Virus record (IMG/VR): IMGVR_UViG_3300046777_001230
Coordinates: 1 to 24,344 of that record
Length of the DNA: 24,344 nt
DNA from: a virus
Direction: 5' to 3' (one strand)
Shown here: in pieces, positions 1-24,082 of the stretch
Position numbering within the stretch: the first letter of the stretch is position 1
How the letters are laid out: each line of letters begins with the position of its first letter
Position numbers and translations under genes: made by a program
Notes under the pieces: model-generated
Seen by the model: only the letters and a program-made list of their open reading frames with translations
What the model was told of the DNA's origin: nothing
Database searches by the model: none

Positions 1-176
1 ACTTGAAGTACCTTTCGTTCAAGGACAACAAGGCATCCCTGCAAGTTGGTGCGATTTCTGGCGAAGATGGCAAAAACATCAAGTTTTACGATGTGCCAGA
101 CGCTGTTGCTGAGGCTGCTATTAAGGCAGCGATGTCGGTTGTGACTGCTTGGTACAACGGCAGAGTTGGCGGCTAA
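1..176 (+). CDS. 3' end of an unknown gene (5' part outside window)
   Basis: An open frame runs from the window edge to TAA at 174-176 and gives 57 visible residues ending in TAWYNGRVGG. The visible part is soluble, with an alanine-rich helix-like stretch (DAVAEAAIKAAMSVV) near the C-terminus. I recognise no family. The frame is open from the first bases, has ordinary codon use, and its stop lies just before a strong hairpin at 189-217, all of which fits the end of a real gene. It is on the same strand as the small-gene array that follows. The function cannot be given from this fragment. Confidence 0.6.
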   Translation, partial: LKYLSFKDNKASLQVGAISGEDGKNIKFYDVPDAVAEAAIKAAMSVVTAWYNGRVGG

Positions 177-188
177 ACGGTTGTTTGT

Positions 189-217
189 GCCCAGCTAGTC
201 TTTGCGACTGGCTGGGC
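189..217 (+). other. Strong hairpin after the first gene
   Basis: GCCCAGCTAGTC (189-200) pairs with GACTGGCTGGGC (206-217) around the loop TTTGC, giving 12 pairs of which one is a T-G wobble. It lies 13 bases after the upstream stop. No T-run follows on either strand, so it is not a classical intrinsic terminator. It could be a 3'-end stabiliser, a factor-dependent stop, or a structure affecting ribosome access to the next gene. The structure is seen directly; the role is inferred. Confidence 0.6.
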
Positions 218-224
218 GTTCAGC

Positions 225-236
225 GGGGGGGGGGGG
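225..236 (+). repeat. G12 homopolymer before the small-gene array
   Basis: Twelve consecutive Gs end five bases before the ATG at 242, where a ribosome binding site would be expected. The tract may itself pair with the anti-Shine-Dalgarno region. Such a run is prone to replication slippage, which would change the SD-to-start spacing, and is also a common sequencing-length error. No other Shine-Dalgarno is visible for the gene at 242. Confidence 0.7.
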
Positions 237-241
237 ATGCA

Positions 242-526
242 ATGGGCGACCGTGATGTGGACTGGCTCGACCAGTTGTGCGAAGCGGACGAGAAAATCGT
301 TGAGCTTGAGTCGGAGAACGCAAAGCTGCGTGATCAACTCCGCTGGCGTAAGTGGCCAGAAGACGATCCAGCAGAAACTGAGCGCCAATATTTGGTGGTT
401 GATAAACACGGTCGTTTTTCGACTAATTACTGGGGTCAAGATGGTGATGGTTCTGGGTGCTGGAATGAATATGTGGAATACGGCTCGTACTGGCGACCCA
501 TCGCCCCGCTGCCGGGAGGGGAGTGA
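242..526 (+). CDS. DUF551-like small protein, array member 1
   Basis: 94 residues. Residues about 10-33 are a charged heptad-like helix (IVELESENAKL), followed by a DUF551-like module from about 36 to 91: WRKWPED at its start, a short strand (QYLVV), and YWRPIAPLP at its end. DUF551 is a phage-borne domain of unknown function with this W..LP ... W.PLP layout. I chose the ATG at 242 because the frame's earlier ATG at 149 lies inside the preceding gene and gives a tail unlike the paralogue at 526. The G12 tract upstream is the likely ribosome site. The stop overlaps the next ATG as TGATG. The middle and C-terminal parts are clearly related, in DNA as well as protein, to the next gene. Confidence 0.75.
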   Translation: MGDRDVDWLDQLCEADEKIVELESENAKLRDQLRWRKWPEDDPAETERQYLVVDKHGRFSTNYWGQDGDGSGCWNEYVEYGSYWRPIAPLPGGE

Positions 527-870
527 TGAGTGTGGAGAATGATGAAATAATGTTAGACGAAACTGTTTATTGGTTCATGCTTCAGCCCCGAATGGCTGAT
601 CCTGAAACCGTTTCGGTGATGGCCAGAGAAGTTCTTGACTTAAGGGATCGTGTGCGGGGACTGGAGGATCAGCTCCGCTGGCGTAAGTGGCCGGAGGAGA
701 AGCCGGAAGCTGGCGGGAAGTATCTGGTGATCTGGTTCGATGATGCAAAGGGATTATGGCTCGATGACATAAAGGTTGTTCAGTGTAACGAGCCTTTAAG
801 AGAGTGTTTTTTCAAGTTGGGTTACTTTTACTGGCGACCCATCGGCCCGCTGCCAAAGGAGAGTGAGTGA
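526..870 (+). CDS. DUF551-like small protein, array member 2
   Basis: 114 residues. It has a helical N-terminus, then LEDQLRWRKWPEEKPEAGGK opening a DUF551-like module (about 47-110) that closes with YWRPIGPLPKESE. The segments around the RWRKWPE and YWRPI motifs match the preceding gene at the DNA level (about 334-355 with 671-690, and 488-513 with 829-854), so the two are duplicates or exchange sequence. ATG 526 is preferred over GTG 523 because GGGAGGGG sits at a normal distance. The start overlaps the upstream stop by one base. Function is unknown; such proteins are usually in early or accessory phage regions. Confidence 0.75.
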   Translation: MSVENDEIMLDETVYWFMLQPRMADPETVSVMAREVLDLRDRVRGLEDQLRWRKWPEEKPEAGGKYLVIWFDDAKGLWLDDIKVVQCNEPLRECFFKLGYFYWRPIGPLPKESE

Positions 871-1025
871 TGGAACATCAATGGTGGATTTGGAACGGCT
901 TGGAGTGCTGCAAAGTTTGTGGCATGGTCCGGCGAAATGATGACAAAAACAAGCCTTGCCGTGGACCTGTAAAAGTTGAACCAAGGATTGAAGCTATCGG
1001 CCCGCCGCCAAAGGAGAGTGAGTGA
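870..1025 (+). CDS. 51-residue Cys-motif protein, array member 3
   Basis: A short gene that is easily missed. The protein begins MEHQWWIWNGLECCKVCGM and carries CxxC at residues 14-17 with a further Cys at 30 (KNKPCRG), which looks like a minimal zinc-binding knuckle of a type seen in small phage proteins. The last 11 residues (EAIGPPPKESE) copy the tail of array member 2, although the rest is unrelated, so the gene reads as a different body joined to a common suffix. ATG 870 overlaps the upstream TGA, and AAAGGAGAG upstream is a good Shine-Dalgarno. Its stop overlaps the next start. Metal binding is inferred only from cysteine spacing. Confidence 0.72.
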   Translation: MEHQWWIWNGLECCKVCGMVRRNDDKNKPCRGPVKVEPRIEAIGPPPKESE

Positions 1026-1366
1026 TGAACGAGTGCTGCAACCCAATGAATGATTCGATCAATATCTCTGCTGAGGACTGGAAGGAGGTCCAGCACCAGC
1101 TTGCGGAAAATAAAGGCCGCTTGGACCACTATTACAAAATGGGCGATTCTAGATACATCGAATTTCACGAGGTGCGAAAGCGTGTTACCGCAATCGAAGG
1201 CTGGAAGAAGTCGCTTATGTTCTGGCTGAAGTTTGCGGCTTGGTGTGTGTTCGCTGTTGTTGCATTTTTTCTGTTTACTACTGCGGTTTTTGTGTTCAGT
1301 AACAAAGACATTAGGGTTCAATACCTAAACCAAAAAATTAGTAACCCCCTGCCGGGAGGTGAGTGA
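1025..1366 (+). CDS. Single-TM small protein, array member 4
   Basis: 113 residues beginning MNECCNP. Residues about 15-60 are charged and helical. Residues about 64-92 are a hydrophobic aromatic-rich transmembrane segment (WLKFAAWCVFAVVAFFLF), followed by a short polar tail ending SNPLPGGE. The tail is the same suffix as in its soluble neighbours, which is odd for an unrelated membrane protein. Basic residues before the segment (KK at 61-62) suggest the N-terminus stays in the cytoplasm. ATG 1025 is favoured over GTG 1022 by the AAGGAGAG spacing. I recognise no family; a membrane-acting accessory protein is the most that can be said. Confidence 0.7.
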   Translation: MNECCNPMNDSINISAEDWKEVQHQLAENKGRLDHYYKMGDSRYIEFHEVRKRVTAIEGWKKSLMFWLKFAAWCVFAVVAFFLFTTAVFVFSNKDIRVQYLNQKISNPLPGGE

Positions 1367-1710
1367 TGGACGATTGCTGCAAACTGCAATTAAAGGAACT
1401 GCTCAAGCGACTGGATGAAAAATTCACCCCGTTGTTTGCGACAGAAAATCAGCGAACGCCAATGACTGAAGAGCAATGGGGAATGTTTCAAGTGTTTCTG
1501 TATGTGTGCCGTGCCGCTCGTTTTCTGGCTTGGGACGATAGCGTCCTCCCACACCCGCTGCCGATACAGAAAGGAACCTTTCTGCATGACGGCTCGGTAG
1601 TGACGACTTTCCATTGGAAAGGTCATTGGTGGCATGAGTACGGCAGAATCATTCGACAGGGCATATACCACCCGGAATTTAACCCGCTGCCGGGCGAAGG
1701 AGGGGAGTGA
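1366..1710 (+). CDS. Small soluble protein, array member 5
   Basis: 114 residues beginning MDDCCKLQLKELLKRLDEK, similar to the MNECC opening of member 4. The N-terminal half is helical. The C-terminal half is rich in Trp, His and Tyr (FHWKGHWWHEYGRI) and probably beta. It ends FNPLPGEGGE, a slightly longer form of the shared suffix. The DNA just upstream (GGGAGGTGAG) is a strong Shine-Dalgarno and encodes the previous protein's last residues. No family is recognised. It closes the complete part of the array. Confidence 0.7.
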   Translation: MDDCCKLQLKELLKRLDEKFTPLFATENQRTPMTEEQWGMFQVFLYVCRAARFLAWDDSVLPHPLPIQKGTFLHDGSVVTTFHWKGHWWHEYGRIIRQGIYHPEFNPLPGEGGE

Positions 1711-1751
1711 TGCCTAACTGTGAAATAGCTTGGGTCGATTTTCCCGTTTAA
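1710..1751 (+). pseudogene. Truncated sixth array member (13 codons)
   Basis: After the fifth junction repeat a well-placed ATG opens MPNCEIAWVDFPV and then stops at TAA 1749-1751. It has the same upstream signals as the complete genes (GGAGGGGAG and TGATG) but no body and no suffix. It overlaps the 3' end of the convergent HNH gene, whose stop is at 1714-1716. The simplest reading is that a further cassette was cut off when the leftward block was joined here. A genuine 13-residue peptide cannot be excluded. Confidence 0.45.
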
Positions 1752-2040
1752 TCCTGTATTCTTCCGCATCCTTGATTACTTCGCAGTTGTAGCTAGTCCA
1801 GTCCTGAAGGTGGCCAAGATAATAGTGGCAGTTACGGCAGAGGGCTATCAGATTCGATTCTAATAGCTCCTCTCCTCCATGCGCTAATGGGATTATGTGG
1901 TGAGCTTCCAGCTTCTTCTTGGTTCCGCAGGCTGAACAGGATTTGCCTTTCAGGAACTTATCCCTGACGGATGGCCAACGAGATGATCTCTGGATTTCAT
2001 TCCAGATTTGATGACCAAAGCTAATCAGATCGTTTAGCAT
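1714..2040 (-). CDS. HNH endonuclease
   Basis: 108 residues with a complete HNH beta-beta-alpha-metal nuclease domain. Zinc ligands are C35-x2-C38 and C68-x2-C71, the HH pair is at 47-48 (LEAHHIIPL), the Asn is at 63 and the final His at 72 (RNCHY). HNH proteins of this size nick or cut DNA, either as free-standing homing endonucleases or as helpers of the packaging terminase. This one lies at the extreme 3' end of the late block and is not next to a terminase, so homing or host-DNA attack fits better. ATG 2040 lacks a clear Shine-Dalgarno, and a large potential RNA fold lies 15 bases upstream (2055-2128), so expression may be low or controlled. Confidence 0.9.
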   Translation of the reverse strand: MLNDLISFGHQIWNEIQRSSRWPSVRDKFLKGKSCSACGTKKKLEAHHIIPLAHGGEELLESNLIALCRNCHYYLGHLQDWTSYNCEVIKDAEEYRIKRENRPKLFHS

Positions 2041-2054
2041 GGATATAGAGGATA

Positions 2055-2128
2055 CAAGGGGAGAGAGGAGCGAAGCCCACCCGGACTCATCTAACGCAGA
2101 TTAGTCCACATCACTCCTCTCCCCCTTG
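2055..2128 (-). other. Nested inverted repeat / candidate structured RNA
   Basis: The outer stem is CAAGGGGAGAGAGGAG (2055-2070) with CTCCTCTCCCCCTTG (2114-2128), 15 pairs with one bulged A. The inner stem is GGACTCATCT (2083-2092) with AGATTAGTCC (2098-2107), 10 bases with one mismatch and loop AACGC. The two are separated by interior strands of 12 and 6 bases. It fills almost all of the gap between the membrane-tail gene and the HNH gene. No T-run follows on either strand. It could be a processing or stability element, a control structure for HNH, or a small RNA. Confidence 0.6.
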
Positions 2129-5873: not shown

Positions 5874-7946
5874 TTACCTCGCGGGAAGTTGGCGGGTTGG
5901 TGGCGTGAAGTTGGCGGTGTAACGTGCGTATTTGGTGACCCGTAGGTCGTCGATGTAACCGTTGAGCGGATAATCAATACTGGACGCCTCTTGACCACCA
6001 ATCAGCACATTTGCTGTGGAGTTGTACAAAGTCGCCGAGAGTGTCTGAGTAGATCCAACCTGCGTTCCATTCCAGAACACTAAAAAGTTGGATCCGTTCC
6101 TAACAAACGCAACGTGATACCAAGTGCCGGTTGATGGAGCGGAAGCAAGATTTACGCTGAGATTAGTCTGATTGCTTCCAGTAGTTGAATAGCTCAGGTA
6201 AAGCTGATAGGTTCCTGCGCTGTTAAAAATGTAAAAGAAATAAGACAAGTTGTTAGATGGAGATGTCCTCCATTGGCTAACAAATGTTGCTGCTCCTGAA
6301 GCAGATGGGATAGCTGTAAAATTAACCCAGCATTCAACGGTAAAATCTGATGATCCTAGCTGCAAATTTGAGTTGCTGGCAATTGTCAGCGCATCCCCCG
6401 TCCCATCGAACTTCAGCGAACCCGTGCCGTATTTCTTCGTGCTTGTGCTGATCTGAGCATCGCCCACCGTTTCGAGGTCGTTCCGTGCGGTGCTGTCGAG
6501 GATGCTGCCGTTTACGAAATTAAGGAGCAAGGACGTGTTGGTGATTGCGGTGAGTGGTGCGGTGGGTGGCGTAAAAGCTGCGGTGTATTGCGCTGTACCT
6601 TTAAGCAGCCGCAATTCCGAAATGAACCCTGAGTAGTAGTAATATGTTGAGCCGTTTTCTTGGTATCTTCCTGTCGTATACTGCGTTCCAGAACTGTAAA
6701 GCGATCCAGAGATTGTCTTGGTTCCAACTATTACTCCGTTCATAAAAACTCGCAAAGTTGAACCGCTTCTGGTTACAGCCAAATGGTTCCACGAATTGAT
6801 GTTTGCAGTCCATCCAAGGTCGGTGAAAAGCCAAGAACTGCCGTTTGTGCTCATGAGTAAATAGGTTGGAGCTAGTCTAAATCCTGCGTAGCTTGTACTT
6901 AATCCAGAAAGATAGAGTAGCCCATCTCCGCTGGCATTAGTTGAGTAGAACCACATTTCTACTGTGAAATCGCCTGAGCCAAAATCAAAACTAGAATTTG
7001 TTGGGAAGCTAAGATAGTCACCACTCCCATCAAAATACCCGCTCCCCCCGTTGGTGCTGCTCTGATATTCCGCTGTCGGAGCAAACGGCGAGAAGGATGT
7101 CACCGCTGCGTTGCCGTAGGGTGTGATGGCGAAGGCGTTGGAGCTGTTGTCTAGGAAGCGGTTGGACTGGCAGGTGAGCAGTGAGGTGTTGGTGATGGCG
7201 GTGAGCGGTGATGCGGATGGCGTGAAAGCTGACGTGTACTGAGCCGATCCCTTAATCACCCTGACGTTGGAAATGTAACCCTTGATGCTTACTTGTGAAT
7301 TTCCAGTATTTGGAGACAAGAAGTTAACATAATTACTTCCTACTGCAAAAGCACCAGTATAAGCCTCATTAATTGATGAAGTTCCAGACGCAACTTGCAC
7401 TCCGTCCATGTATAACTTAACGCTGGTCCCGCTTCTTACGGCAGCTAGATGCACCCATCTGTTTGCAGGAATTGTACTACTAGATGTTATTACAAAACCG
7501 CCACTTCCAGTATTAAATGACATGAAGTTTGGATAGCCAGTAGTTGATATTCCAAGAGACCACCCAACATCTGATCCAGTAAATGCAAGGGTTCCGCAAA
7601 TGTTTGAATTGTATGTGTTTGTAATCCTTTCAAGCCAAACCCACGCTTCAACCGTGTAGTCACCTGATCCAAGCTGCAACGCTGAATTGTTACTGATGCT
7701 CAGATAGTCACCATCCCCATCAAAATAATTACTCCACCTTCCATCCGGCGCACTAAACGGCGAGAACGTCCCCTGCGTGGTGTTGCCGTTGCGGGTGATG
7801 GAAAACGCATTGGTGCTGCTGTCGGTGAACGTGTTGTTCTGGCCGCCGTTGCTGCCGTTGCCTTGCAATAGCAGCACCGTGCGGTTGAAGTATTCGTCCG
7901 CTACGCTTGCGCCTGCTGCTGCTCTTAATGCGTGATGCTGGCTCAT
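5874..7946 (-). CDS. Tail protein with three LamG (ConA-like) domains
   Basis: 690 residues. ATG 7946 is preferred to a start 102 bases upstream because it overlaps the fibre stop as ATGA and removes an extension that lies inside the neighbouring gene. After a short N-terminus come three laminin-G / concanavalin-A-like domains at about 75-240, 303-460 and 510-682. Each has the FDGxGDxLxI / GSGDYTVEAW opening, a central WxHLAxVRxG strand with MDGVQV-like turn, and a G[YF]I[SD][ND]xR closing motif. Linkers repeat YTxAFTPxxxPLTAITNTSLL-like sequence. LamG domains bind sugars, so host-surface recognition is likely. It lies between a YadA-like fibre and a fibre chaperone, consistent with a receptor-binding tip or second fibre. 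Confidence 0.88.
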   Translation of the reverse strand: MSQHHALRAAAGASVADEYFNRTVLLLQGNGSNGGQNNTFTDSSTNAFSITRNGNTTQGTFSPFSAPDGRWSNYFDGDGDYLSISNNSALQLGSGDYTVEAWVWLERITNTYNSNICGTLAFTGSDVGWSLGISTTGYPNFMSFNTGSGGFVITSSSTIPANRWVHLAAVRSGTSVKLYMDGVQVASGTSSINEAYTGAFAVGSNYVNFLSPNTGNSQVSIKGYISNVRVIKGSAQYTSAFTPSASPLTAITNTSLLTCQSNRFLDNSSNAFAITPYGNAAVTSFSPFAPTAEYQSSTNGGSGYFDGSGDYLSFPTNSSFDFGSGDFTVEMWFYSTNASGDGLLYLSGLSTSYAGFRLAPTYLLMSTNGSSWLFTDLGWTANINSWNHLAVTRSGSTLRVFMNGVIVGTKTISGSLYSSGTQYTTGRYQENGSTYYYYSGFISELRLLKGTAQYTAAFTPPTAPLTAITNTSLLLNFVNGSILDSTARNDLETVGDAQISTSTKKYGTGSLKFDGTGDALTIASNSNLQLGSSDFTVECWVNFTAIPSASGAATFVSQWRTSPSNNLSYFFYIFNSAGTYQLYLSYSTTGSNQTNLSVNLASAPSTGTWYHVAFVRNGSNFLVFWNGTQVGSTQTLSATLYNSTANVLIGGQEASSIDYPLNGYIDDLRVTKYARYTANFTPPTRQLPAR
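6535..7245 (-). repeat. Repeated inter-LamG linker DNA
   Basis: Two copies of a linker of about 60 bases lie at 6535-6600 and 7186-7245. They share GTGTTGGTGAT and GCGGTGAG, and the later AAAGCTG (plus-strand sense), at the same spacing. A third, weaker relative is at about 5889-5930. They code for the segments that separate the LamG domains and show the protein grew by tandem duplication of a unit of about 650 bases. The DNA likeness is higher in the linkers than in the domain cores. Confidence 0.6.
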
Positions 7947-9577
7947 GCCGTCCCCACCAGTGCGCCGTAAATTGTGCTGGAGCGTTTCCACAGTTCGATT
8001 ACGGTATATCCGCTGGTTGCTAATGTCGGCGCAGAACCGCCGATCCAAGTCGGACTAATCGTTGACCAAGTAATTGCATATGCAGTCCCGTCATCAACCA
8101 TCAGAGTGACCGATTGGCCTTCCGCAAAACTGGATGCTGTCGGTGTGCGATTTGCGCCCAAGGTCCAAACCTGAATACCACCATTGGCTGGGTTGATGTC
8201 TACGGATGCGCCGTCAGTAATAGTGAATACTGTCTCCTTGATTGCTGGAGCGTTGACCTTGCCCGTACCGCTTGGAGTCAGGGTTACGTCCTGATTTGTT
8301 CCACCAGCGGTCACAGTCAATGCGCCATTTGCTGTGATGGTTGCGCTCGATGCGCCATTGCCAAGGTTCAGCGTGTTGCCGTAGATGTAAGCTGCGTTCG
8401 TATTGGTGTTTCCAAGTGTTGCAGAGTTTGATCCTTTCCCAATCGCATCGGTTCCAATCACTATTTCATTAGTGCAGTCATTGTTTAGGGGTCTTGACCT
8501 GTACCCGATAAATATTGAATCAGTTGATTTGTAGAGAAGGTTTGAAATGTTTGAAGTGCAATAACTTCCAGAGTCCTGACCTACGGCTGTATTTCTTGAA
8601 AGGTTTGTGGCGTAAGTTAATGACCTTTGACCGATGGCTACGTTGTAACCATCGCCTGCGGTTTTATAGACAATTGTCGCACTTCCAACCCCAACGTCAT
8701 AGTTTCCTTTGGCTTCTGCAAGTGAGTAACTGCCTATCGCTGTTGAGAAATAATAATGAGATCCGATTGAACAAGTATCAGTCCCTAAAGCGGTTGATGC
8801 CTGAACATTGGAAGCGTTCCTGAATGTTCCGTGACCAACAGCAGTTACTCTTGATAGTGAATATGTTGGGTAATTTGTGGCTATATTTTCAAGCGTAAAT
8901 TTTCCAAAAAACATAGAGTCTGCATGACCAACAGGTGTTGAGTTTGCCGAAGTCATATAACCGCTGCTTGGGCCTTCGCAGAGAAGTATTTCATTAAATT
9001 TAAATTGACCGTTTCTTTGCCTATATTGAAACGGACCAGATGGATAATAATCATATCCACTACCAGCTTGAAAACTCAAAACTCCACCGTTAGTAGTCAC
9101 ACCAACAGTTGGAGTTTGATTCTGACCAATGATCGATACAGAACCGCCATTGCTGGTTGATGGAGACAGAAAAGTAAGATTGCCAACGCTTGTGATCGAA
9201 CCGTTAGCAGTTCCTGTCCCACCATTGGTTACGGGAAGAATCCCGGTGATTTGATTCGTCAGGTCAACACCAGAGAGCGTTCCACCAAGCGTGATATTGC
9301 CTGAACTGGTTACCGTTCCAGAGAGAGATAAGCCATTGACAGTACCATTACCGCCAACGCTTGTTACCGTCCCAAGTGGATTACTGTCCCAATACGCAGA
9401 AGTGCCATTGGTTGTCAGATACTTGCCAGAATTTCCAGATTGAGTTGGCAATCCAAAATTGACTACATCGGATACCAAAGACTTTCCAGCGACCCCGGTA
9501 GTCGGATCAGCAACTGGAATAATGTCAGTCAGTGCCGGAATTTTTGATGTTAAATCGGCAACTGTCTTATTAGCCAT
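7943..9577 (-). CDS. Tail fibre with YadA-like head repeats
   Basis: 544 residues. The N-terminus (MANKTVADLTSKIPALTD) and GTVTSVGGNGTVNGLSLSG followed by NQITGILPVTNGGTG are typical phage-fibre shaft sequences. Residues about 245-390 carry trimeric-adhesin (YadA head) repeats: AVGHGT, ALGTDT, AIGSYS, VGVGSA, VAIGQRS, AVGQDSG, IFIGYRS, IVIGTDA and SATLGN. The C-terminal part (about 420-544, DVTLTPSGTGKVN ... YGALVGTA) is a common exchangeable fibre tip. A homotrimeric receptor-binding fibre is expected. The ATG overlaps the preceding stop (TAATG). There is no intramolecular chaperone signature, so the separate chaperone at 5397-5870 may serve it. Confidence 0.88.
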   Translation of the reverse strand: MANKTVADLTSKIPALTDIIPVADPTTGVAGKSLVSDVVNFGLPTQSGNSGKYLTTNGTSAYWDSNPLGTVTSVGGNGTVNGLSLSGTVTSSGNITLGGTLSGVDLTNQITGILPVTNGGTGTANGSITSVGNLTFLSPSTSNGGSVSIIGQNQTPTVGVTTNGGVLSFQAGSGYDYYPSGPFQYRQRNGQFKFNEILLCEGPSSGYMTSANSTPVGHADSMFFGKFTLENIATNYPTYSLSRVTAVGHGTFRNASNVQASTALGTDTCSIGSHYYFSTAIGSYSLAEAKGNYDVGVGSATIVYKTAGDGYNVAIGQRSLTYATNLSRNTAVGQDSGSYCTSNISNLLYKSTDSIFIGYRSRPLNNDCTNEIVIGTDAIGKGSNSATLGNTNTNAAYIYGNTLNLGNGASSATITANGALTVTAGGTNQDVTLTPSGTGKVNAPAIKETVFTITDGASVDINPANGGIQVWTLGANRTPTASSFAEGQSVTLMVDDGTAYAITWSTISPTWIGGSAPTLATSGYTVIELWKRSSTIYGALVGTA

Positions 9578-20791: not shown

Positions 20792-22132
20792 TTAGGCGTT
20801 GTTGTTCTTGACGGTGTGCCAAGGACTCCAGACGCTGGGGATACCACGCTCGTTGGCGAAGTAAGTTGCGACGATGCCCCTGTCGAGCATCTCGTACTGG
20901 TTCGGACTGGCCTGAGTGACGGTCAGCGGGTAGTTCTGCATATAGCGGAACGACTTGCCACCTTCCATCATAAACCACAAGCCATCAGTGTTGGCCTGAT
21001 TCAGGTTCAGACCATCCGCTGCCAAGCACCTCTGCTCGATCAACGGGCTGGACAGAACAGTGAACTGTCCAGAATAAGGATTACCCGGAGTGCTGCTGAC
21101 ATTCAGGACATCAGCGTTAGCCTGAGTCGAACCGGGAGTGGTGCGACGATCAGTGCTGCTTGCACCCAAAATCAAGTTAGCGGTAGCCAACTTGGCCGGA
21201 TTCACCAGAATGGTGTTCGGCGTAATCAGCAAACGCTTTCCAGTATGGGGATCTTCCATACGGGAGAAGAGCAGCATGGTGGACTGGATTGAAGTCCAGT
21301 CGATCAGCTGGTTGGTGTGGGCGTTGAGATAGCCCAAGGTCCGGCTGGTCTGGTAGGTATTGTATGCCGTACCGTTGTACTTGAAGGAGTTGTTAATACC
21401 AAGGATGGTATCAATCACCTCAAGTTCCTTGCGGTAAGCAAGCTCAGTACCAACCGAATTGGCCTGCTGGAGGATGGCTCCGGTCAGGTCGAAGAACACG
21501 GTTTCCTTGAGAACATCAATCGCCAGAGCGTTCTCACGGGTTTCAGGAGTCTCGATCCAACGCTCACCGAATTGAGCCCTTGGATGAGTCTCACCGGGAG
21601 CCCGCTTCCTGCCACGTTCACCGATGTTCTGAAGGCCGATAACCTTCTGGCCGTTAAGCTTGGTAGCTTCGACGGGCATCAGGCGATCAGCAATCAGGGC
21701 TGGGTTCTGGAACGCTTCCAGAATCTTCACTTCCACCAATCCACCAACGATGGCGGTAAAGGTGTTGATGTTGAGGAAAGCGGAAGGATCAAGACCGAAA
21801 CCAGTGGCTTCGACCAGAGCCCTCTGCTCATTGGGGAAACCGCCTTCAACCAGAGAACGGGCAATCGTGTACTGATTCAGACTGCCAGACTCAGGATTGA
21901 AAACATTGCGCCAGCTGGGTCCAACGATGGACTCGGCTAGCTCTTGGAGGCTGAACTGCTCGGGGCGAACGCTGCGATCCTTCAGGATGCGGTTGCCAGC
22001 GAAGTCCCGATTGTCATTCCCGTCCTTATCGCAAAGGCCCAAACCTTGGCGCATCTCGGTCAGGAATCGCCAACGCCCGTTAGTCTCCTTAGTGCGAGAC
22101 TCGTACAGGTTCCTCAACTTAATCGTGTTCAT
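20792..22132 (-). CDS. Major capsid protein (HK97-type)
   Basis: 446 residues. It is preceded by the protease-scaffold and a DUF2190-like gene and followed by small head proteins, the position of the main coat protein. Features that fit an HK97 fold with Mu-type organisation: a long N-terminal helix region (IKLRNLYESRTKET), central LVEVKILEAFQNPALIADRL (the region before the spine helix and E-loop), ENALAIDVLKETVFFDLTGA with a long helix, an A-domain-like stretch LLITPNTILVNPAKLATANL, and a closing TYFANERGIPSVWSPWH. AAGGAG stands 10 bases before ATG 22132. The codon use is unlike the other genes, with clear preference for C-ending codons, consistent with very high expression. Confidence 0.87.
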   Translation of the reverse strand: MNTIKLRNLYESRTKETNGRWRFLTEMRQGLGLCDKDGNDNRDFAGNRILKDRSVRPEQFSLQELAESIVGPSWRNVFNPESGSLNQYTIARSLVEGGFPNEQRALVEATGFGLDPSAFLNINTFTAIVGGLVEVKILEAFQNPALIADRLMPVEATKLNGQKVIGLQNIGERGRKRAPGETHPRAQFGERWIETPETRENALAIDVLKETVFFDLTGAILQQANSVGTELAYRKELEVIDTILGINNSFKYNGTAYNTYQTSRTLGYLNAHTNQLIDWTSIQSTMLLFSRMEDPHTGKRLLITPNTILVNPAKLATANLILGASSTDRRTTPGSTQANADVLNVSSTPGNPYSGQFTVLSSPLIEQRCLAADGLNLNQANTDGLWFMMEGGKSFRYMQNYPLTVTQASPNQYEMLDRGIVATYFANERGIPSVWSPWHTVKNNNA

Positions 22133-22717: not shown

Positions 22718-24082
22718 TTAGTTTTGCAACCAACGGAACAAGGACTCACCTTCAGGAATGCTAGACCCCTTGCTCTCTTGAAGCGGGGCACTTGCTGGTG
22801 GGCACTTGGGCTTCGCTGCAACATAAGCAGCAGCGATCCTCTTGATCTGACGCTCCATAGCAGACTCCTCCAGTGAGGACAAATCCTCGACCAGAGATTC
22901 TTCAAACTTCACGCCAGATGCTTCGCAGAGGTCACGAATCTTGTCCTTGGCTTTCAGATAAGCCAATTGCTCCTGCGGGTCTTTCGACTCCTTCACAGGT
23001 TTCATGCGCTCTTTTCCATCTTCCTTCTCGGAATCCATCTCATCTTCGGATTCCATCTTGTGCTTTGCGCCACACTTCTCACAGGTGGTCATCTTCTCTT
23101 CGTCCATATCCGTTTCGTCGGCCTTCTTGTAAGGCTCCTTATCCATGCCCTCTTCGGTATCGTCCGAAGAATCCTTCTCGTCTTTTTCTTTCGGTTTATC
23201 TTCGATACGGGCCATAGCTTCTTCGGTTTCCTTGACCGCTTCAGTGGCATCCATTTCAATATCTCCTAATTCTTCCGCAAGGAAATCAATAAGTTCATCG
23301 GCCTTCTGGTCATCGGCCAAATCATCTCTGGTGAGAATCTGCATGACCTTGTAGTGAAGGTCTTTCTTCATTTTCTCTTCGTCATCAACCTTCGGCTCGA
23401 CTGGCTGATCGTTCTCATCAGCTTCCTTGATGCTCCCGGTCGGCTTGTTCGCACTCTGACTCTTGCTCTTCACGAAGTTCCTCCGTGCTTGAGGAGGTCG
23501 TTTTTTGCTCTTTCGATAAACTCCTGAGTACGCTGCTTCTTCTGTCTCTTGCTCTGTTGCCTGTTTCGATTCCGCAAGCGATTGCGTTGTTGCCGGGTCT
23601 GCAACCAAATCGACATGGCGTACCTCAGTGATCTTATTCACTTCAAAGATGCCACGCTTATTAACAATCCCTTCGCCTTGAGCGTTATGAGACATTCCAA
23701 ACACATCCGGCATACGCTCGGCAGCTTCACAAACTTGCTCTGCGATTGGATGACTCTTCAAGTAGACTAAGTCGCCAAAAAGTCCTTCGCCTTCAACGAA
23801 TCGGACATTGACGAACTTTCCAAAGCGATCATAGCTGGAACGCTGCTGAGTCGGACCCTTTTCAGGATGATCGACATTAACCTTGATCCCCTCATACAGG
23901 GGAATGGCAGCTTTCAATGCGCCAGAAGTGTATCGCCGTCCATTCTGCGAATTAAAACCGATGATCTTGACATTACGAATAACGCCAGCTTCCCGGTCAA
24001 CAAGTAGCTGAGTCTTGCCCACTTGTTGAGGCTGGAAAGTGGTGATTGAAAGGTCTTCGGTTAAAATTTCTAGTGTCGGCAT
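22718..24082 (-). CDS. Capsid maturation protease fused to scaffold
   Basis: 454 residues. Residues about 1-170 are the protease: VIRNVKIIGFNSQNGRRYTS, KVNVDHPEKG with probable catalytic His72, then VFGMSHNAQGEG with probable Ser131 and HVDLVADPAT (His156 may complete the set). This resembles the herpesvirus-assemblin-like prohead proteases. Residues about 171-454 are the scaffold: basic linker, then a long highly charged acidic helical part (EKDEKDSSDDTEEGMDKE), with a CEKCGAKHK knuckle at 334-341 and helical ends. Fused protease-scaffolds cut themselves after prohead assembly and leave the head. No clear Shine-Dalgarno precedes ATG 24082. Confidence 0.88.
   Translation of the reverse strand: MPTLEILTEDLSITTFQPQQVGKTQLLVDREAGVIRNVKIIGFNSQNGRRYTSGALKAAIPLYEGIKVNVDHPEKGPTQQRSSYDRFGKFVNVRFVEGEGLFGDLVYLKSHPIAEQVCEAAERMPDVFGMSHNAQGEGIVNKRGIFEVNKITEVRHVDLVADPATTQSLAESKQATEQETEEAAYSGVYRKSKKRPPQARRNFVKSKSQSANKPTGSIKEADENDQPVEPKVDDEEKMKKDLHYKVMQILTRDDLADDQKADELIDFLAEELGDIEMDATEAVKETEEAMARIEDKPKEKDEKDSSDDTEEGMDKEPYKKADETDMDEEKMTTCEKCGAKHKMESEDEMDSEKEDGKERMKPVKESKDPQEQLAYLKAKDKIRDLCEASGVKFEESLVEDLSSLEESAMERQIKRIAAAYVAAKPKCPPASAPLQESKGSSIPEGESLFRWLQN

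Follow-up and report, generated by a model that had tools for sequence, protein, structure and literature searches.

Comparison of the array with its relatives leads us to understand the short DNA element at every junction of five small phage genes as, probably, a ribosome site for translation coupling that doubles as an exchange point of short homology, the suffix common to the encoded proteins being a by-product. The window analysed is an entire linear IMG/VR record of 24,344 bases, marked as phage by its tail genes, with the array at its left end: five plus-strand genes, each overlapping the next by TGATG (Table 1). A sequence-only reading had attributed the PLPGGE- and PPKESE-type tails of these neighbours to one junction element, and both the tails and the near identity of the junction DNA bear this out (92% between 505-528 and 1345-1368; 97% over the 32 nt of 841-872 and 996-1027). 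Every junction consists of CCGCTGCC or a one-base variant, a Shine-Dalgarno sequence (GGGAGGKGAG, AAAGGAGAGTGAG or GGGCGAAGGAGGGGAG) and TGATG, this being the start-stop overlap of A/B, B/C, C/D and D/E. The tails of unrelated proteins are alike because one short element sits at each junction, and the shared suffixes are real and beyond chance. The same reading had taken the five bodies as different, two of them DUF551-like, which holds for genes C, D and E, with no relation seen to A/B or mutually apart from the junctions and 24 nt around the start codons common to D and E, but not for A and B, which are homologous to each other. Relatives of gene C were sought among the fetched arrays and none was found.

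Table 1. Array features by window position, and coliphage-type loci of related layout by locus
Feature	Position or locus	Strand	Remarks
F03 cassette end	3-176	+	truncated at contig end
Gene A	242-526	+	coiled-coil plus DUF551-like; tail PLPGGE
Inner linker in gene A	332-374	+	DQLRWRKWPE codons; 81% identical to 667-709
Element copy A/B	506-528	+	CCGCTGCCGGGAGGGGAGTGATG
Gene B	526-870	+	C-terminal part homologous to gene A; tail PLPKESE
Inner linker in gene B	667-709	+	
Element copy B/C	847-872	+	CCGCTGCCAAAGGAGAGTGAGTGATG
Gene C	870-1025	+	51 aa, Cys-rich; tail PPPKESE
Element copy C/D	1002-1027	+	CCGCCGCCAAAGGAGAGTGAGTGATG
Gene D	1025-1366	+	membrane protein, family F06; tail PLPGGE
Element copy D/E	1346-1368	+	CCCCTGCCGGGAGGTGAGTGATG
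Gene E	1366-1710	+	family F04, NECC N-terminus; tail PLPGEGGE
Element copy after E	1684-1712	+	CCGCTGCCGGGCGAAGGAGGGGAGTGATG
13-codon frame after last element	1710-1751	+	MPNCEIAWVDFPV; read directly
Coliphage-type DUF551 loci, two-linker layout	L254, L258, L260, L267, L273, L280, L287, L292, L300, L303, L316, L321, L324		

The fifth element is followed by the 13-codon reading frame only, with no real gene, likely the remnant of a lost follower. An HNH endonuclease gene (1714-2040, minus strand) is convergent on this end of the array. At the other end, positions 1-349 are 96% identical to contigs G027 and G029. A run of 12 G at 225-236, just 5' of gene A and replaced by GGGAGG in G022, could reflect either a ribosome site that varies or an artefact of sequencing.

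With at most three mismatches allowed, the window contains the 23-nt pattern of the element twice, and none of 100 dinucleotide shuffles contains it. Array regions of related contigs (337 kb) hold 62 copies with up to five mismatches, all on the gene strand, as against none on the opposite strand and none in the reversed sequence; pattern scans found the element in about 30 further IMG/VR contigs (5.5 to 190 kb), again always on the gene strand. Across 29 non-redundant copies, conservation spans about -21 to +2, counted from the last base of the stop codon, and on either flank information drops near zero within a few bases. The high values of the core are partly built in through its use for recruitment, which did not build in the sharp block edges or the CCG upstream of the core. 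The comparison of junction with body identity suggested in the earlier reading thus gives a near-invariant junction, from which both flanks reach background within few bases. A search of 257 Gb of genomes found just three exact copies of the core, in unrelated settings; the matches to genome contigs, L211-L213, were unrelated, at chance level, and were set aside. Searches of INPHARED with the window DNA, with gene B and with the proteins encoded at 20792-22132 and 22718-24082 gave no match, nor did a search of plasmids with gene D. The large protein of 5874-8048 (minus strand), which matches structural and baseplate families and has very many relatives in viral contigs, was discarded as a LamG-like query, its promiscuous domain leading to 80 loci without the array.

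Exchange at the element is supported by the positions at which similarity between contigs breaks off. BLAST breakpoints fall 83 times in 55 elements against 7.8 (SD 2.7) at random, and they peak precisely where TGATG ends; the 84 other tight gene boundaries hold 29, against 10.1 (SD 3.0). The partner differs across the element in 59 of the 64 junction pairs related on at least one side and, across the remaining tight boundaries up to 2 kb away, in three of 29 related pairs, fractions that represent an effect size with no formal probability attached, the pairs not being independent. Across element junctions, 34 upstream and 38 downstream types occur in 54 combinations. For part of the contigs used in these tests the element itself had served for recruitment; the window's relatives are without exception fragments from metagenomes, and their gene calls come from a simple script, with some flanking gene boundaries approximate. 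Genes D and E, sampled by protein and hence independently of the element, give the same picture: across seven contigs gene D is followed by six different genes, and L239-L242 carry gene E with 95.6% identity over exactly 1350-1712, from element to element, between neighbours that on both sides are unlike those of the window.

Pairs of closely related contigs place the switch of partner at the element itself. G017 and L243, from different metagenomes, have 4025 nt in common at 99.4% identity, beginning at the element. Upstream of it, a DUF551-like gene stands in one contig and gene E in the other; the crossover is confined to 12 nt. G006 and G015 are 95% identical over 4285 nt from the element onward and differ in the genes before it, while G005 and G017 agree on both sides of a sole differing gene that sits between two elements. 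Cassette F15, between two element copies in G015, is absent from L236, which looks like a deletion or the reverse insertion. Larger comparisons are in keeping: the backbones of G006 and G015 are about 70% identical to the window, yet their array contents are other ones; contigs otherwise devoid of DNA similarity to the window match its cassettes at 81-99% identity; and gene B precedes D in the window, whereas D precedes a B-like gene in L204. With bodies gained, lost and reordered between contigs and crossovers in the junction, cassette exchange, one of two readings entertained from the sequence at the outset, is supported. In L204 (G021), the follower of the element (oriented 8191-8721) is a small sigma-70-like gene by weak Pfam matches.

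The other initial reading, selection on translation coupling alone with junctions converging in the absence of shared descent or exchange, now appears very unlikely. It would accommodate the strong Shine-Dalgarno and TGATG, and L207-L210, left out by us as having probably converged on AAAGGAGG in other phages, resemble what it describes. However, CCGCTGCC, placed upstream of the Shine-Dalgarno, keeps the same codons across unrelated bodies even if untranslated, near-identical contigs switch partner exactly at the element, and the shared-cassette pairs already contradict convergence. A somewhat better, still low probability is given to illegitimate recombination acting everywhere, with selection keeping the joins at boundaries and the element a relic of descent that does not promote exchange. 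The excess of breakpoints also at ordinary tight boundaries speaks for it, as does a join in G022 (L230, oriented 6500-6540), where DNA downstream of F03 meets an F02 gene end at TGGGCGAC, from which it follows that exchange uses other microhomologies too. Against it stand the scarcity of partner change at nearby ordinary boundaries and the location of the crossovers inside a stretch of shared identity. Among the non-edge ends of matches of at least 93% identity, 93 of 146 lie away from the element. Given these many breakpoints elsewhere and the recombining inner linker described below, the element appears as a preferred point of exchange beside which others exist.

Assembly chimeras joined at the repeat might be suspected, all window relatives being metagenomic and the breakpoints lying on a repeat. 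Yet the same joins were found in metagenomes independent of one another (the E cassette in four, the join of E-type to DUF3310 in three and that of D to MRRPTEL in two), which argues against misassembly, and isolate coliphages exhibit the same design, so that this explanation retains a minimal probability.

Equally improbable is that the suffix represents a protein-level signal (tag, degron or interaction motif) under protein selection, an idea that the PLPGGE-type ends of unrelated proteins invite. Homologous bodies exist with and without the suffix, DUF3310 having it only in G023. Gene E in L243 ends in PLPGKSGE, which is the tail of the usual junction of the downstream gene: the tail precedes the MTDYRTK gene in G005 and, as PLPGKWGE, in G017. 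Furthermore, synonymous positions of the element are likewise conserved, and in L184 and L201 the upstream gene ends before the element, which is left untranslated; the initial description of the element as also translated is therefore correct usually, with these two exceptions. The element's variable half is identical in eight of 24 same-follower pairs versus six of 42 same-body pairs, suggestive only of its travelling with the downstream gene.

Site-specific recombination, with the element as target of an integrase or integron-like enzyme, has next to no probability. Such sites are short, directional and repeated, and tyrosine integrases are indeed encoded in three of 17 contigs; but presence in only three of 17 fragmentary contigs does not make them an array-linked recombinase, and the one in G003 is separated from the element by about 8.5 kb. 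Copies of the element are of unequal length and sequence, and crossovers fall at differing places within it and at other short identities. A structured site is not apparent either: the RNA fold of the element is at chance level, Rfam gave no match, and inverted repeats sought in window positions 1-2100 were not found.

For the preferred reading of a coupling site doubling as exchange point, the following scenario is proposed. By combining the last codons of one gene with a Shine-Dalgarno sequence and an overlapping stop/start, the element would provide strongly coupled translation. It most likely originated from the 3' end of DUF551-like genes, whose last residues (..WRPIGPLP) are part of the DUF551 domain, an origin qualified by the weakness of the DUF551 homology. 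Genes would be swapped, inserted or deleted at the element by recombination over very short identity, and the element would be the usual place for it because the same 21-29 nt occur at many junctions in many phages. A crossover within the element would leave the upstream reading frame unbroken, together with its stop codon, and would keep the ribosome site and start of the following gene, so that the recombinant would work at once. The recombination may proceed by annealing or by template switching, with enzymes of the phage or of the host. Rad52-like phage enzymes show relaxed recombination (PMC3945230); G003 encodes a RusA resolvase close to its array, and a search for RecT was negative.

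The DUF551 relationship deserves separate consideration. The suggestion that genes A and B are DUF551-like stands as a weak resemblance to a true DUF551 protein (hhalign E 0.0016, probability 16%), with no match above cut-off to Pfam DUF551 (PF04448). Within such genes a second exchange point exists, the RDLLRWR codons, at which 14 N-terminal and 14 C-terminal types are joined in 23 combinations among 30 DUF551-like proteins; copies of this linker lie at 332-374 and 667-709 of the window. Another linker, untranslated and with ACCACGGCGACACCTGCCGTT, was noted between the element and the F03 gene in several contigs (arrays of G006, G022, G024, G025, G027 and G029). Coliphage-type DUF551 genes share the array's layout of two linkers and a Shine-Dalgarno at the junction: their THWMPLPEPPQEVK codons include CAGGAGGTGAA, the Shine-Dalgarno of the next gene, of which there are at least six different ones. 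The 47-nt coliphage junction query is matched by 142 INPHARED records, and the design recurs in the isolate phages 2H10, ST104, HK106, MG40, P1 and Louie, the MG40 record annotating a ribosome site within the Eaa gene. A queuine tRNA-ribosyltransferase gene is located two genes past the DUF551 junction in HK106; adjacent to an array, L082:4443-5129 (plus strand) matches the phage family of this enzyme, phrog_887. The Ea22 proteins have been described as mosaic and DUF551 as portable (PMC10834534). Ea22, Eaa and Ead, with their C-terminal DUF551 (PMC10834534), resemble the array proteins in having a variable N-terminal body, an inner linker, a variable DUF551 middle and constant end codons that contain the next gene's Shine-Dalgarno, before followers that change. 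They differ in element sequence and in that every upstream protein seen retains DUF551, whereas C, D and E of the window possess the suffix only. A wider proposal, which we regard as possible though doubtful, is that the element is being maintained as a handle for exchange: a cassette system with no recombinase of its own, in otherwise unrelated phages, using the ribosome site as homology arm and spread by DUF551 3' ends, of which process the portable DUF551 domain of coliphages would be a trace.

Regarding known systems, there is an analogy to lambdoid mosaicism, for which short conserved boundary sequences (linkers) have been proposed, according to the work cited in PMC3029335. In both cases short DNA common to gene boundaries provides homology for module exchange. 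Relative to that cited account, the window element is distinguished by being a defined ribosome site with stop/start overlap, and by several copies per array, many unrelated backbones and direct breakpoint evidence. Short common DNA between unrelated modules, with the crossovers located in it, makes the array a dense and well-resolved form of already known boundary-sequence mosaicism, the design of which extends to well-known phages. Translation of the linker, by which the sequence-only reading had set the element apart, is no distinguishing trait, for it is found also in the coliphage DUF551 genes and in the mycobacteriophage Island3, where the neighbours gp67 and gp68 have 18 C-terminal residues in common via a 60-bp repeat, Brujita having one recombinant copy (PMC3029335). 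The likeness lies in unrelated neighbouring proteins that share C-terminal residues through a translated repeat; that case is a single event in one phage pair with no next-gene ribosome site described, as compared to dozens of junctions here. The start-associated sequences of cluster K mycobacteriophages are likewise directional repeats with Shine-Dalgarno pairing at the starts of unrelated genes, for which a role in recombination is merely suggested, with no breakpoint evidence given (PMC3203893). Those are 13-bp GGGATAGGAGCCC sequences, usually in intergenic gaps of over 50 bp, mostly untranslated and in half of the cases accompanied by an inverted repeat (PMC3203893); the present element has a different sequence and sits in overlapping genes. 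The PeSL of T4-type phages (promoter plus stem-loop between genes, cited in PMC4503421 as homology for shuffling) is, as there summarized, similarly a regulatory element doubling as homology for gene shuffling, while the window element is a ribosome site inside overlapping genes and has no stem-loop beyond chance.

Lastly, our study has importance in tying a translation signal to genome mosaicism, in a group where the element is defined and changes of partner are many, where one near-identical pair places a crossover within 12 nt, and where the boundaries nearby serve as an internal control. Shared protein tails are explained with no need of shared function, and a reason is offered for the portable appearance of DUF551. 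Suffix similarity among small phage proteins, it is cautioned, need not mean homology.
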